DNA of 64,000 nucleotides from Devosia sp. YIM 151766 (GTDB lineage: Bacteria > Pseudomonadota > Alphaproteobacteria > Rhizobiales > Devosiaceae): the NCBI RefSeq assembly GCF_030285925.1, contig NZ_CP127251.1, positions 62,001 through 126,000 on the forward strand, in the 5' to 3' direction. The number at the start of each line of letters is the position of its first letter. Within the stretch, counting starts at the first letter, position 1. This document shows positions 56,912 through 62,116 of the stretch, piece after piece. The notes below the pieces were generated by a model that was not told where the DNA came from, did not search any database, and saw only the letters and a program-made list of their open reading frames with translations. Position numbers and translations under genes: made by a program.

Positions 56912-58042
56912 ATGTCCCTATCAAGCCAGATCGAAACCCTGCGCACCGAATTGTCCGCCTCCATAGCCGATGCCGGGAGCGAAGCCGCCCTCGATGCCGT
57001 GCGCGTCTCGGCCCTGGGCAAGAAGGGAAGCGTTTCCGCCCTGCTCGCCACGCTCGGCGCCATGGCGCCGGAAGACCGCAAATCCGCCGGCCCCGCCATC
57101 AACGGCCTCAAGACCGAGATTGCTGCGCTGATCGAAGCCCGCAGCGGCGATCTCAAAGCCGCCGCGCTCGACGCCCGGCTCCAGGCGGAGACGGTCGACG
57201 TCACCCTGCCGCTGCCGCCGGCGCCGACCGCCAGGGGCCGCATCCACCCGATCAGCCAGACCATCGACGAGATCACCGCCATCTTCTCGGATATGGGCTT
57301 CTCCATCGCCGAGGGCCCCGATATCGAGACCGATTATTTCAACTTCACCGCGCTGAACTTCCCCGAAGGCCATCCGGCGCGCGAAATGCACGACACCTTC
57401 TTCATGAAGCCCGGTCCCGACGGGGTGAAGAGGGTGCTGCGCACCCATACGTCGCCGGTGCAGATGCGGGTCATGCAAAAGACCAATGAAAAGCCGGCCG
57501 CCGCCTATATCACCCCGGCCATGGACCCGCCGATTCGCGTGGTCATGCCCGGCCGCACCTATCGCAATGATTCAGACCAGACCCATACGCCGATGTTCCA
57601 CCAGGTCGAAGGCCTGGTCATCGACAAGGAAAGCCATATCGGCCAATTGCGCTGGGTGCTCGAAGAATTCCTCAAGGCCTTTTTCGAGGTGCCCAGCGTC
57701 ACGCTGCGCTTCCGGCCCAGCTTCTTCCCCTTCACCGAGCCGAGCATGGAAGTGGACGTGCAATGCGACCGCTCCGGCTCGGAGGTGAAGATCGGCGAGG
57801 GCGACGACTGGCTGGAAATCCTCGGTTGCGGCATGGTCCATCCCAATGTCATCCGCAATGCCGGGCTCGACCCCGACATCTATCAGGGTTTCGCCTGGGG
57901 CATCGGCATCGACCGCATCGCCATGCTCAAATATGGCATGCCGGACCTGCGCGCCTTCTTCGACGCCGACCAGCGCTGGATCGACCATTACGGATTCAGG
58001 CCGCTGGACCTGCCGACGCTGTTCGGGGGGTTGAGCTCTTAA
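56912..58042 (+). CDS. pheS: phenylalanine--tRNA ligase subunit alpha
   Basis: 376 residues, catalytic subunit of the alpha2-beta2 synthetase. N-terminal coiled coil (about 1-90), then class II motifs: [29 protein letters not shown], the motif 2 region [22 protein letters not shown], and motif 3 [15 protein letters not shown] chose the ATG at 56912, family-typical [18 protein letters not shown]; the longer frame is repeat. pheT is normally adjacent but starts 1650 bases downstream here. Confidence 0.97.
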
Positions 58043-58044
58043 AA

Positions 58045-58281
58045 ATGCCGACCTTGTTGCGGTGGAAGGGATATCGGTTCTTCTTCTACTCGGCCGATGG
58101 CTGGGAGCCGCCACATGTCCATATTATAAAGGATGGACGAGAAGCCAAAATATGGCTGCGCAACCTCAATGTTGCGGTCAATTTCGGCTTCTCCGCGCGT
58201 GATCTCAACGAGATCATCGGTGCAGTTCGTGAACACAGAAGCGCCTTTCTGGAGGCATGGAATGACTACTTTGGTGCTTGA
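58045..58281 (+). CDS. DUF4160 domain protein
   Basis: 78 residues starting 3 bases after the pheS stop: MPTLLRWKGYRFFFYSADGWEPPHVHIIKDGREAKIWL, matching DUF4160 with its HxH motif (PHVHI) and RDLNEIIGAVREHRSAFLEAWNDYF. DUF4160 genes commonly pair with DUF2442 genes, as here, and such pairs have been proposed as toxin-antitoxin-like modules; function not proven. Overlaps the next gene by 20 bases. Confidence 0.9.
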   Translation: MPTLLRWKGYRFFFYSADGWEPPHVHIIKDGREAKIWLRNLNVAVNFGFSARDLNEIIGAVREHRSAFLEAWNDYFGA

Positions 58282-58525
58282 GATCGAAGATAGCCGACCC
58301 GTTGCAGCCCATTGCGATGACTCGCAACTGCATGTTCGCCTCGCGGATGGCCGCGCGGTCGCCACGCCAATCTGGTGGTATCCTCGACTCGCCGCCGCCA
58401 GTCCGGCCGACCGCGGCGAAATTGAACTGATGCCCATGGGGCTGCACTGGCCGGCGATTGACGAAGACATCTCGATTGCCAGCATGCTGCGCGGCGAGAA
58501 GGCCCCGGGGGCAGTCGCCCCGTAA
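58262..58525 (+). CDS. DUF2442 domain protein
   Basis: 87 residues starting inside the DUF4160 gene (20-base overlap): MTTLVLEIEDSRPVAAHCDDSQLHVRLADGRAVATPIWWYPRLAAASPADRGEIELMPMGLHWPAIDEDISIASMLRG. The DGR..TPI.WYPRL and HWPAIDEDISI motifs are diagnostic of DUF2442. Partner of DUF4160; likely co-translated. No known activity. Confidence 0.92.
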   Translation: MTTLVLEIEDSRPVAAHCDDSQLHVRLADGRAVATPIWWYPRLAAASPADRGEIELMPMGLHWPAIDEDISIASMLRGEKAPGAVAP

Positions 58526-58540
58526 AAACCCAACCACTCG

Positions 58541-58622
58541 CCGGGTCATTCCCGCGCAGGCGGGAATCCCCATTGCGGGATGCTGACAGATAAACAGAGA
58601 TCCCCGCTCGCGGGATGACATA
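58541..58622. repeat. repeat family B, inverted pair
   Basis: GGGTCATTCCCGCGCAGGCG then GGAATCCCCATTGCGGG, and inverted after about 25 bases, AGATCCCCGCTCGCGGGATG then ACA. Same family as 52251-52325 and 52451-52525. Separates the DUF2442 gene from the ASCH-exonuclease gene. Confidence 0.8.
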
Positions 58623-58628
58623 GGGAAG

Positions 58629-59681
58629 GTGACCGGGGTGTCGTCCACAACGGACAACGGCAAACAGATAAGGTTCAGCTTCGGCGATTCGCCGGAGCTG
58701 GCCGACAATCTGCTTGCCTTGGTGCTGGCGGGCAAAAAGACCGCGACCTGTGGGGCGTTGCGCGATTTCGGCGGCCAGGACGGCGAGCCCCTGCCCGAAA
58801 TCGGCCGTCGTGACATCGTGCTCAATGGCGCCGGCGAGGAGGCCTGCCTGATCGAGACGCTCTCGGTCGAGACCAGGCGTTTCGATGCCATCGACCCGTC
58901 CTTCACCGACCGGGAAGGCGAAGGCCCCTATGCGAGCTGGCGCGCCAGCCACGAAGCCTATTTCTCCCGCAATGGCGGCTTCTCGCCGGATATGGAGATC
59001 GTCTGCGAAACCTTCCGGCTGGTGAGCGTGCTGCCGGCCGGCCGCGCGCTCTACAATCGGGTGGCCCGGCCGATCTTCATCGTCACCGATATCGAGAGCG
59101 ACGGCCCGACGCCGCTGCACAATTCCATGCTGAGCTTCGCTTCGGTGGCTATCGAGGCCGATGGCACCCGCCATGGCGAGTTTGAAGCGGTGCTGGTGCC
59201 CCGCTCCGACCGGAAACCGCATGAAACCACCATGGATTGGTGGGCGACCCAGCCCGAAGCCTGGGCGGCGGCCACCGAAGGCGCCGAGGACCCGGCACTG
59301 GTGATGCCGCGCTTCGCCGATTGGGTGGAAAACCTGCCGGGCCCGAAAGTCTTCGTCGCCGCGCCGATGATTTTCGACGGGCTGTGGATGGACCATTATC
59401 TGGACGAATATGCCGGCACCCGCGCGCTGTCCGGTCCCTTTACCGGCCGCCAGATCTTCCGCGGCGGTGGCATCTGCCTCTATACCATGGCCGGAACGCT
59501 GCGCGGCGCGCCCTATCTCGACTGGGGCATGAGCAAGCTGCCGGCCGAGTTCTACGGCCATATCGCCCATACGCACAAGGCTATCGACGATGCGCGCGGC
59601 TTTGCCCATGTGCTGGTCGAATTGTTCAAACTTTCCGCTGCCCTGCCGCCCATTACCGGCAGCGCCAGTGACTTCCGCTAA
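58629..59681 (+). CDS. ASCH domain - DEDDh exonuclease fusion protein
   Basis: 350-residue single open frame. Residues about 14-143 are a complete ASCH domain of the YcfX/COG4405 type (FSFGDSPELADNLLALVLAGKKTATCGAL ... SHEAYFSRNGGFSPDMEIVCETFRLV), a PUA-like fold that binds RNA or modified nucleosides. Residues about 155-335 match a DEDDh 3'-5' exonuclease (RNase T / polymerase-epsilon-like): Exo I TDIESDGPTPLHNSMLSF, Exo II AAPMIFDGLWMDHYL, Exo III HTHKAIDDARGFAHVL. GTG start at 58629 or, better spaced after AGGGAAG, at 58638. Ends 11 bases before pheT. I know the two domains as separate proteins; the fusion looks unusual. Confidence 0.85.
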   Translation: MTGVSSTTDNGKQIRFSFGDSPELADNLLALVLAGKKTATCGALRDFGGQDGEPLPEIGRRDIVLNGAGEEACLIETLSVETRRFDAIDPSFTDREGEGPYASWRASHEAYFSRNGGFSPDMEIVCETFRLVSVLPAGRALYNRVARPIFIVTDIESDGPTPLHNSMLSFASVAIEADGTRHGEFEAVLVPRSDRKPHETTMDWWATQPEAWAAATEGAEDPALVMPRFADWVENLPGPKVFVAAPMIFDGLWMDHYLDEYAGTRALSGPFTGRQIFRGGGICLYTMAGTLRGAPYLDWGMSKLPAEFYGHIAHTHKAIDDARGFAHVLVELFKLSAALPPITGSASDFR

Positions 59682-59692
59682 AGGCTGACAAG

Positions 59693-62116
59693 ATGAAATT
59701 CACCCTCGACTGGCTCAAGGAACACCTGGAGACCAATGCCTCGCCCGAAGATATCGGCAAGGCCCTGACCATGATCGGTCTGGAAGTGGAAGGCATGGAA
59801 AGCCGGGGCAGGGCGCTGGAGAAATTCGTCGTCGCCCGGGTGGTTTCGGCCGAGCCGCACCCCAATTCCGACCATCTCCAGATCTGCAAGGTCGATGCCG
59901 GCACCGGCGAGGTGATCGACGTGGTCTGCGGCGCTCCCAATGCGCGCACCGGCATGAAATCGGTCTTCGCCGCGCCCGGCACCTATATTCCGGGCAAGGA
60001 TTTCGAGTTGAAGGCCGGCGTGGTCATTCGCGGTGCCCCGTCCAATGGCATGTTGTGCTCGGCCGCCGAGCTCGAGCTCTCCGAGGATCACGAAGGCATT
60101 ATCGAATTGCCCGACGATGCGCCGGTGGGCGCCAAATATGTCGATTATGCCGGTCTCGACGGCGTGGTCTTCGATATTTCCATCACCCCCAATCGGGGCG
60201 ACGCCACCGGCGTCTATGGCGTGGCCCGCGATCTCGCCGCCTTCGGCATCGGCACGCTGAAACAGACCGATATGTCGCCCGTGCCCTCCAAGGGGCCGAG
60301 CCCGATCGCGCCCTTGCCCCAGCAATTTGCCGAGGGCGAGCCCAAGGCGATCCGCAAATTCGCCGGGCGCTATATCGCCAAGGTGAAAAACGGCCCCTCG
60401 CCCGACTGGCTGCAGGCGCGCCTGCGTGCCGTCGGCCTGCGCCCCATCAATGCCATCGTCGATATCACCAATCTGGTCTCGCTCGGCTGGGGCCGGCCGC
60501 TGCATGCCTATGATGCCGACAAGATCGAGGGCACGATCCTGCTGCGCAATGCGCGGGGCGAAGCCTTCGATGCGCTCGACAACAAGGTTTACCAGCTCGA
60601 CGAGACCATGACCGTCATCGCCGACGACAAGGGGCCGCTCTGCCTGGGCGGCGTCATGGGCGGCATCCGCTCCGGCGTCACCGAGGAGACGGTCAATGTC
60701 TTCATGGAATGCGCCAGCTGGGATCCCGATCTCATCGCCCAGACCGGGCGCAAGACCGGCATCGTCTCCGATGCCCGCTATCGCCTGGAACGCTCGGTCG
60801 ATCCAGCCCTGACCGAGCCGGGCATGGAACTGGCCACGCGGCTGGTGCTCGAGCTGTGCGGCGGCGAGCCGATGCAGCCGGCCATTTCCGGCGCGGACAT
60901 TTTCCCCGAAACCGTGGTCGAATTCCCGCTCTCGGAAGTCAAACGGCTGACCGGGCTCGAGGTCTCGCCCGAACGTATCGAGGCGATCCTTGCCTCCCTC
61001 GGCTTTGTCGTCTCTGGCAGCGGGCCGGTGCGGAATGTGCAGGTGCCGTCCTGGCGCCCCGATGTCACGCAAAAGGCCGACCTCGTCGAGGAAGTCATGC
61101 GCATGGTGGGCGTCGACAATGTGCCGGTCGAGCCCTTGGCGCGACTCGACCATGTCGCCCCGCGCATGCTGACCAATATCCAGAATCGCCGCCGCATCGT
61201 CCGCCGCGCCCTGGCGGCCCGGGGGCTCGACGAAGCCGTCACCTGGAGCTTCATTTCCCACGATGACGCCACTCGTTTCGGCGGCGGCACCCAGGACCGG
61301 CAATTGGCCAATGCCATCGCCTCCGACATGACCGATATGCGCCCCTCGCTGCTGCCGGGCCTGCTCGCCGGCGCCCGCCGCAACGCCAATCGCGGCTTTG
61401 ACGATATCGCGCTGTTCGAAGTCGGCCAGGTCTTCCTGTCCGACCGGCCCGAAGGCCAGCGCACCTATGCCTCGGGTGTGCGCACCGGAACGGCCAGGAT
61501 CAGCGGCGCCGGCCGGCACTGGTCGGGCCGCGCCGAAGCGGTTTCCGTATGGGACGCCAAGGCCGACCTCGCCGCCGCGCTCGATGTTCTGGGTGTCGAC
61601 ATGGACAAGGCGCAGGTGCTGCCGGAGGCGGCGAGCTGGAGCCATCCGGGCCGTGGCGGCCGCGTGGCGCTCGGCCCCAAGATCACCCTGGGCTGGTTCG
61701 GCGAACTGCATCCGGCCCTGGCGGCCGAGCTCGACATCGACGGCCCCGTTGTCGCTTTCGAACTCGATGTCGACGCCATTCCCGAGCCGCGCCGGAAAGC
61801 CACTCGCACCAAGCCGGCACTGGAACTGTCGCCGTTCCAGGCGGTCAGCCGCGACTTCGCCTTCGTCATGGACCGCGCTGTCACCGCCGCCGCCGTGCTC
61901 AAGGCGGCGCGCGGCGCCGACAAGGCGCTGATCAGCGATGTCGGCATTTTCGACGTGTTCGAAGGCGCCCATGTCGGCGAAGGCAAGAAATCGGTCGCCA
62001 TCGAAGTGACCTTGCAGCCCCGCGACCGGACGCTGACCGACGAGGACATCGACAAGGTCTCGGCCGCCGTGGTCGCGGCGGTGACCAAGGCCAGTGGCGG
62101 CGAGTTGCGGAAATAA
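59693..62116 (+). CDS. pheT: phenylalanine--tRNA ligase subunit beta
   Basis: 807 residues. N-terminal EMAP-II-like tRNA-binding domain (about 40-150), B3/B4 editing module (about 215-390, with RPINAIVDITN), B5 domain (about 405-475), a catalytic-like core, and the C-terminal FDX-ACB anticodon-binding domain (about 705-805: LSPFQAVSRDFAFVMDRAV). ATG at 59693. Separated from pheS by three accessory genes and a repeat, but still in the same orientation. Confidence 0.97.
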   Translation: MKFTLDWLKEHLETNASPEDIGKALTMIGLEVEGMESRGRALEKFVVARVVSAEPHPNSDHLQICKVDAGTGEVIDVVCGAPNARTGMKSVFAAPGTYIPGKDFELKAGVVIRGAPSNGMLCSAAELELSEDHEGIIELPDDAPVGAKYVDYAGLDGVVFDISITPNRGDATGVYGVARDLAAFGIGTLKQTDMSPVPSKGPSPIAPLPQQFAEGEPKAIRKFAGRYIAKVKNGPSPDWLQARLRAVGLRPINAIVDITNLVSLGWGRPLHAYDADKIEGTILLRNARGEAFDALDNKVYQLDETMTVIADDKGPLCLGGVMGGIRSGVTEETVNVFMECASWDPDLIAQTGRKTGIVSDARYRLERSVDPALTEPGMELATRLVLELCGGEPMQPAISGADIFPETVVEFPLSEVKRLTGLEVSPERIEAILASLGFVVSGSGPVRNVQVPSWRPDVTQKADLVEEVMRMVGVDNVPVEPLARLDHVAPRMLTNIQNRRRIVRRALAARGLDEAVTWSFISHDDATRFGGGTQDRQLANAIASDMTDMRPSLLPGLLAGARRNANRGFDDIALFEVGQVFLSDRPEGQRTYASGVRTGTARISGAGRHWSGRAEAVSVWDAKADLAAALDVLGVDMDKAQVLPEAASWSHPGRGGRVALGPKITLGWFGELHPALAAELDIDGPVVAFELDVDAIPEPRRKATRTKPALELSPFQAVSRDFAFVMDRAVTAAAVLKAARGADKALISDVGIFDVFEGAHVGEGKKSVAIEVTLQPRDRTLTDEDIDKVSAAVVAAVTKASGGELRK

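Follow-up and report, generated by a model that had tools for sequence, protein, structure and literature searches.

A single gene in the window, a 64,000-nucleotide stretch of the Devosia sp. YIM 151766 genome, joins an ASCH domain to a DEDDh 3'-5' exonuclease domain between pheS and pheT, and related bacteria have joined the same two domains in the opposite order. The protein is tentatively read as an ASCH-guided 3'-5' exonuclease, a proposal that falls somewhat short of probable. The gene and its parts are as follows, with residue numbers taken from the 350-amino-acid (aa) frame that begins at GTG 58629.

58638..59681, + strand: ASCH-DEDDh exonuclease fusion gene, probably 347 aa from GTG 58638 (open frame, Pfam ASCH match, upstream GGAAGG, homologue starts)
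58704..59024, + strand: ASCH domain of the EF3133/YhfF type, residues 26-132 (Pfam, alignments)
59034..59063, + strand: linker helix, residues 136-145 (secondary structure of the AlphaFold2 model)
59067..59648, + strand: DEDDh 3'-5' exonuclease domain, about residues 147-340 (profile, alignments)

Integrity of the fusion

The open reading frame (ORF) at 58629-59681 on the + strand encodes 350 aa with no internal stop. Among 37 Devosia genomes, including that of the window, the full-length fusion was present in 24, the exonuclease only in 7, and neither domain in 6. In the named genome contigs, 41 records showed a match (37 called Devosia). Judged by matched residues and context, the complete fusion was present in 29 of these and the ASCH domain alone in 3; 8 had just the exonuclease, which in L072 was found as two pieces, and one (L063) was clipped by the contig end. 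Both halves are under purifying selection with a constraint close to that of PheT; the median ratio of nonsynonymous to synonymous substitutions (dN/dS) was 0.157 for the ASCH half, 0.112 for the exonuclease half, and 0.155 for PheT (19 loci, 171 pairs each). The AlphaFold2 model of the fusion had a predicted local distance difference test (pLDDT) score of 94.5 and a predicted template modelling (pTM) score of 0.88. A frameshift or missed stop between the halves was rejected, because the frame is full length in 24 of the 37 genomes, both halves are constrained, and the model is confident. The sequence-only reading of this DNA, which had described one uninterrupted frame with all three Exo motifs and had called for a count of homologues with the same layout, was thus confirmed on the frame, and the count is given by the numbers above.

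Properties of the two domains

Pfam ASCH (PF04266) matched residues 26-132 with an E-value of 3.7e-16 and 60.1 bits (cut-off 21.2), and this match, together with the profile and the fold, assigns the domain to the EF3133/YhfF type. In the alignment of 18 ASCH rows, Lys37, Glu96-Gly97-Glu98, Trp104, His108, and Phe112 were invariant, and residue 40 was Thr or Ser. The named motif of the ASCH superfamily is GxKxxxxR (PMC5615036). Its Lys was found in 18/18 rows, and the Arg five residues on in 0/18. The absence of this Arg looks like a trait of the EF3133/YhfF subfamily, since the aligned sequences of PDB 1t62 and 3s9x also lack it. In the catalytic set of the YqfB-type amidohydrolases (Lys21, Thr24, Arg26, Glu74), the Lys and Thr/Ser have counterparts here, the Arg has none, and Glu74 could not be aligned with confidence.

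In the exonuclease half, Asp154, Glu156, Asp250, His316, and Asp321 were invariant in 21/21 rows (the protein of the window and 20 relatives), so that the DEDDh set is complete, with D-x-E in Exo I, D in Exo II, and H-x4-D in Exo III, as the sequence-only reading had stated. Metal-dependent 3'-5' exonuclease activity is predicted from these intact motifs. The search of domain databases that this reading had proposed succeeded for the ASCH half, whereas the exonuclease half stayed below the Pfam cut-offs (PF16473, Rv2179c-like, 22.7 bits vs 27; PF00929, 13.3 vs 24) and was recovered by the 21-row profile and the motifs. Scanned alone, it scored 25.0 bits with PF16473, still below the cut-off, and several close homologues carry PF16473 in precomputed annotation. 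The PDB matches of the profile were Cap18 (7t2s, E 1.1e-21), a PolC-type exonuclease (2p1j, 1.3e-6), and RNase T (0.003), and the PADLOC exonuclease effector model matched this half with an E-value of 1.1e-9. The only match of TIGR01298 (RNase T) in the genome of the window was at another locus (22.3 bits vs 246.2), and the protein itself gave none. One PF00929 match, a 285-aa frame, exceeded the cut-off in the same genome. These searches, which covered PF00929 and TIGR01298, gave no positive evidence that the fusion stands in for RNase T or oligoribonuclease.

Joining of the domains in both orders

A reversed protein, with the exonuclease followed by ASCH in one frame of 338 aa, was found between pheS and pheT in another genome of the order (G128; L101, 4986-6002), and its AlphaFold2 model had a pLDDT of 92.1 and a pTM of 0.88. 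Among the matches listed, proteins like it formed 14 clusters (70-91% identity over 98-100%, 331-338 aa), two of which carry organism names, both Maritalea. Sequences of the reversed type were inspected for P0121, P0132, P0134, and P0135, the last being from an uncultured proteobacterium with 42% identity to the reversed fusion. In a further genome (G237), ASCH and the exonuclease are adjacent, separate genes in different frames of the same slot. The protein searches cover the best 120 of 522, 508, and 211 matches, beyond which further fusions may exist.

In the ASCH tree, the Devosia domains formed one group (support 99/96 with one reversed row and 99/98 with four), and the ASCH domain of P0135 grouped with a different ASCH lineage (99/94). 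Forcing P0135 together with Devosia (p-AU, from the approximately unbiased test, 0.0012) or with Maritalea (0.030) was rejected. Separate joining in Devosia and Maritalea is the simpler reading because the domain order is opposite. At least two fusion events are counted, and there were probably three.

A quick exonuclease tree, with very long branches, placed the exonucleases of the slot on one side and those from elsewhere on the other (support 81). In a more careful tree, 12 rows from elsewhere formed one side (95/93), and when four free proteins of uncertain place were added, the slot rows were not one group. No frame spanning both halves was found among 385 genomes of the class, that of the window excepted. 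None was found among 349 genomes of the phylum either, a poor test because profile A1 (built without L109) recovered no more than the exonuclease half from the genome of the window itself.

The pheS-pheT gap as the site of the fusion

The pheST operon encodes phenylalanyl-tRNA synthetase (PheRS), an essential tRNA-charging enzyme. pheT lies directly behind every fused Devosia locus examined for context, in agreement with the position first noted in the window. Two Devosia loci (L073, L074) have the arrangement pheS-ASCH-pheT with no exonuclease, and four genomes of the genus examined at the slot (G014, G189, G214, G293) have neither domain there; the context tables omit tblastn matches of at most 25% identity for loci on Devosia contigs and at most 22% for those of the order and class. 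The fusion is dispensable in the genus, and the exonuclease alone takes the same slot in some members. A tree built on pheT, with 113 rows (325 PheT residues free of stops, one row per distinct sequence, rows scored as none and lacking a pheS match excluded), required 28 changes of slot state. Rows with the exonuclease only, with ASCH only, or with an empty slot were nested within the fused ones, which indicates that the content of the slot changes often. The 44 rows scored as none include genomes with ASCH after pheT, and L063 was scored as exonuclease-only solely because its contig starts inside the gene.

Across the order, 77 of 397 genomes gave a match. The exonuclease occupied the slot in three families, namely f1 (G091, G128, G237, and the Devosia fusions), f15 (G050, G339), and f27 (G245), and a further eight exonuclease matches at E <= 1e-20 lay away from pheST (G409, G391, G194, G279, G099, G377, G072, G144). 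ASCH matches at the same threshold numbered 48, including 8 in fusions, and 32 of them, counted by hand, lay beside pheST in two different positions: 22 between pheS and pheT (8 fused and 14 others; families f1, f19, f23, f29, and f35) and 10 directly after pheT (f44). The remaining 16 were elsewhere, a placement that for 7 of them relies solely on pheT lying on a different contig. In g73 of f44 (L136-L143, L145, L158), the ASCH gene, again of this type, directly follows pheT and does not precede it. This is a separate positional association, and it keeps the idea of a link to translation alive. Among 10 class-level ASCH or exonuclease loci fetched, none had pheST beside it. A one-off chance insertion, which the sequence-only reading had offered as an option, is not supported.

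Other residents of the slot were YetF (DUF421), DUF559, a TIR-domain gene, DUF2283, ABM, and DUF4160/DUF2442, and a BrnA antitoxin was found in the slot of one fused Devosia locus (L018); a family scan left 3 of 10 slot proteins without any family. In 40 genomes of the order with neither domain in the slot, hand-picked from the listed pheT rows and not random, 5 had no pheS nearby and 35 had a measurable gap, which was at most 125 bp in 21 and at least 275 bp in 14 (L198 being unsure, as its pheS match is in pieces). In this order the pheS-pheT gap accommodates accessory genes. The TIR-domain gene (L205, 1002-1761) is of the CAP12/Pycsar type (PF10137), and five families have DUF559-like genes in the slot (identified by Pfam in L181 and L184 and by eye in L183, L192, and L134). 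Spread of the fusion by plasmid or phage was rejected, since none of the 187 plasmid and 14 phage matching records (from 72,556 plasmid and 50,697 phage records) covers at least 80% of the protein.

Start site and neighbouring genes

The start of the protein is probably GTG 58638, which gives 347 aa, because the sequence GGAAGG (58624-58629) lies 8 nt before this in-frame codon and because GTG 58638 lines up with the initial Met of homologues, P0004 and P0008 (345 and 346 aa) among them. The frame of 350 residues first described is open, but its GTG 58629 is overlapped by GGAAGG and is the less likely start. Three entries of 217 aa named 3'-5' exoribonuclease (P0086, P0088, P0089) start inside the fusion, and their species are also on record with a full-length frame or protein (L050, L055, P0063); these entries probably reflect start-site annotation and possibly an internal start.

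The locus has the neighbours rplT, pheS, DUF4160, DUF2442, pheT, and folC, of which those nearest to the fusion are listed here.

56912..58042, + strand: pheS (start picked by eye within a longer ORF; context)
58045..58281, + strand: DUF4160 gene, first of a pair between pheS and the fusion and outside the latter (Pfam, context)
58271..58525, + strand: DUF2442 gene, second of the pair (Pfam, context)
59693..62116, + strand: pheT, beginning 11 nt past the fusion stop codon

The DUF4160/DUF2442 pair (58045-58525) also lies between pheS and the fusion in L008, L039, and L040 and occupies the slot of L175 with no fusion; it looks like a mobile two-gene module. A palindromic repeat-like sequence at 58544-58569, just upstream of the fusion, was present as a single copy when the 64-kb window was searched with up to 3 mismatches.

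Proposed function and alternatives

The fusion is a new architecture of known parts, an ASCH-restriction endonuclease protein being already in print (PMC10853773). No ASCH-DEDDh fusion, in either of its two orders or at the pheST site, was found in the open-access literature searched, and the original ASCH survey by Iyer, Burroughs, and Aravind could list one. The solved EF3133/YhfF-type proteins (1t62 and 3s9x; 166 and 159 residues) consist of ASCH alone and lack a nuclease domain. Cap18 of the E. coli upec-117 cyclic oligonucleotide-based antiphage signalling system (CBASS) is a lone domain of 187 residues, whereas the Devosia exonuclease is joined to ASCH and encoded within pheST. By sequence, RNase T shows a weak likeness, and the Rv2179c-like exoribonucleases (PF16473) and phage T4 DexA (8kel/8ken) have no ASCH. 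The restriction endonuclease-ASCH, helix-turn-helix (HTH)-ASCH, and HsdS-ASCH proteins likewise join ASCH to a nuclease or DNA-handling domain (PMC10853773, PMC7641849), but the partner is not a DEDDh 3'-5' exonuclease. In ZmASCH of Zymomonas mobilis, a precedent for RNA binding and cutting within the superfamily, the nuclease activity is in the ASCH domain itself.

We propose that the C-terminal DEDDh domain, which has the fold of Cap18, RNase T, and DexA, would use metal ions to take nucleotides off 3' ends. The substrate, for which an RNA end or a modified nucleotide is the likeliest candidate, would be bound by the invariant Lys, Glu, Trp, and His of the N-terminal ASCH domain, which would thereby select the molecule to be trimmed or place it for the exonuclease. 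Co-transcription with pheS and pheT is expected from the spacing. The joining of the same parts in opposite order by related bacteria suggests that they work together, and the guided nuclease of the sequence-only reading gains indirect support from it. The interpretation in that reading is partly supported, and its link to tRNA or translation may or may not hold. RNA is somewhat more likely than DNA as the substrate, because PUA/ASCH-superfamily domains are described as having a general link with RNA and the machinery of translation (PMC7641849) and one ASCH protein cuts single-stranded RNA (PMC5615036). A more specific version, in which the ASCH pocket captures a modified nucleoside of tRNA or other RNA near PheRS and licenses trimming, as a reader-eraser assembled at least twice, in both orders, within the pheST operon, is doubtful.

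Several points weigh against the guided exonuclease. The nuclease can do without ASCH, because 7 of the 37 Devosia genomes have the exonuclease only, and the joining could follow from neighbourhood because many genes enter the slot. A role in translation gains little from position by itself, since the slot also takes unrelated genes. In the ASCH tree, P0135 is on a long branch, and holding Devosia and the reversed group together gave a p-AU of 0.024 with G128 alone and 0.244 with four reversed rows, so that the tree is no proof of separate origins in Devosia and Maritalea. By fold, DNA is as possible as RNA, and some ASCH domains have been suggested to bind (modified) DNA (PMC7641849). YqfB-type ASCH enzymes are reported to act on free nucleosides, with nucleic-acid binding undetected (PMC9599836), and no function or substrate of EF3133/YhfF-type proteins was found in the literature searched.

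It is improbable, though worth weighing, that the halves are two successive enzymes in a YqfB-like salvage, the exonuclease releasing mononucleotides from nucleic acid that is damaged or modified, and ASCH hydrolysing an acyl or amide modification on the nucleotide so released. E. coli YqfB and its kind are ASCH-superfamily amidohydrolases acting on free N4-acetylcytidine (ac4C; PMC6972931, PMC9599836), and a Lys with Thr/Ser three residues on, spaced as Lys21 and Thr24 of YqfB, is kept in 18/18 ASCH rows. A counterpart of the catalytic Arg26, whose Ala mutant is reported as inactive, is absent from all 18, the position having been matched by spacing and not by structure. TmcA (PF13718) and TmcAL (PF05636), which we take to be the two known ac4C-making families, were not found in the genome of the window, where control families were found. 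A YqfB-like role is less likely because of the missing Arg and the missing families, and ac4C deacetylation as the role of ASCH is weakened by both.

An accessory defence or anti-mobile-element nuclease housed in the slot, with ASCH reading modified foreign nucleic acid, is unlikely. It would suit the CAP12/Pycsar-type TIR, BrnA, DUF559, and DUF4160/DUF2442 genes in the slots of relatives, the patchy presence within the genus, the CBASS protein Cap18 as the nearest solved structure by sequence profile, the PADLOC match, and the reported restriction endonuclease-ASCH fusion in mobile neighbourhoods (PMC10853773). However, no cGAS/DncV-like nucleotidyltransferase (CD-NTase), with which Cap18 shares its operon, was seen among the neighbours, which were read by eye with no defence scan of the whole window, and catalytically dead Cap18 left phage protection unchanged in the reported test (PMC9122588). 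The gene is also kept in many Devosia species with a dN/dS like that of PheT, and no plasmid or phage record covers at least 80% of the protein.

That the two genes simply land often in the slot and became one when a stop codon was lost, with the domains still working independently, is quite unlikely: the slot does accept many genes, each domain also occurs there alone, and G237 has them side by side, but they were joined repeatedly, in both orders, and maintained across a genus, and the models of both orders, judged by score alone, reach a pTM of 0.88.

EF3133/YhfF-type ASCH proteins occur in many bacteria, and a natural ASCH-nuclease fusion, with ASCH-free and reversed versions to compare, offers a direct route to the ligand of their pocket. 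The pheS-pheT gap is, in addition, a site for accessory genes inside an essential operon of this order.
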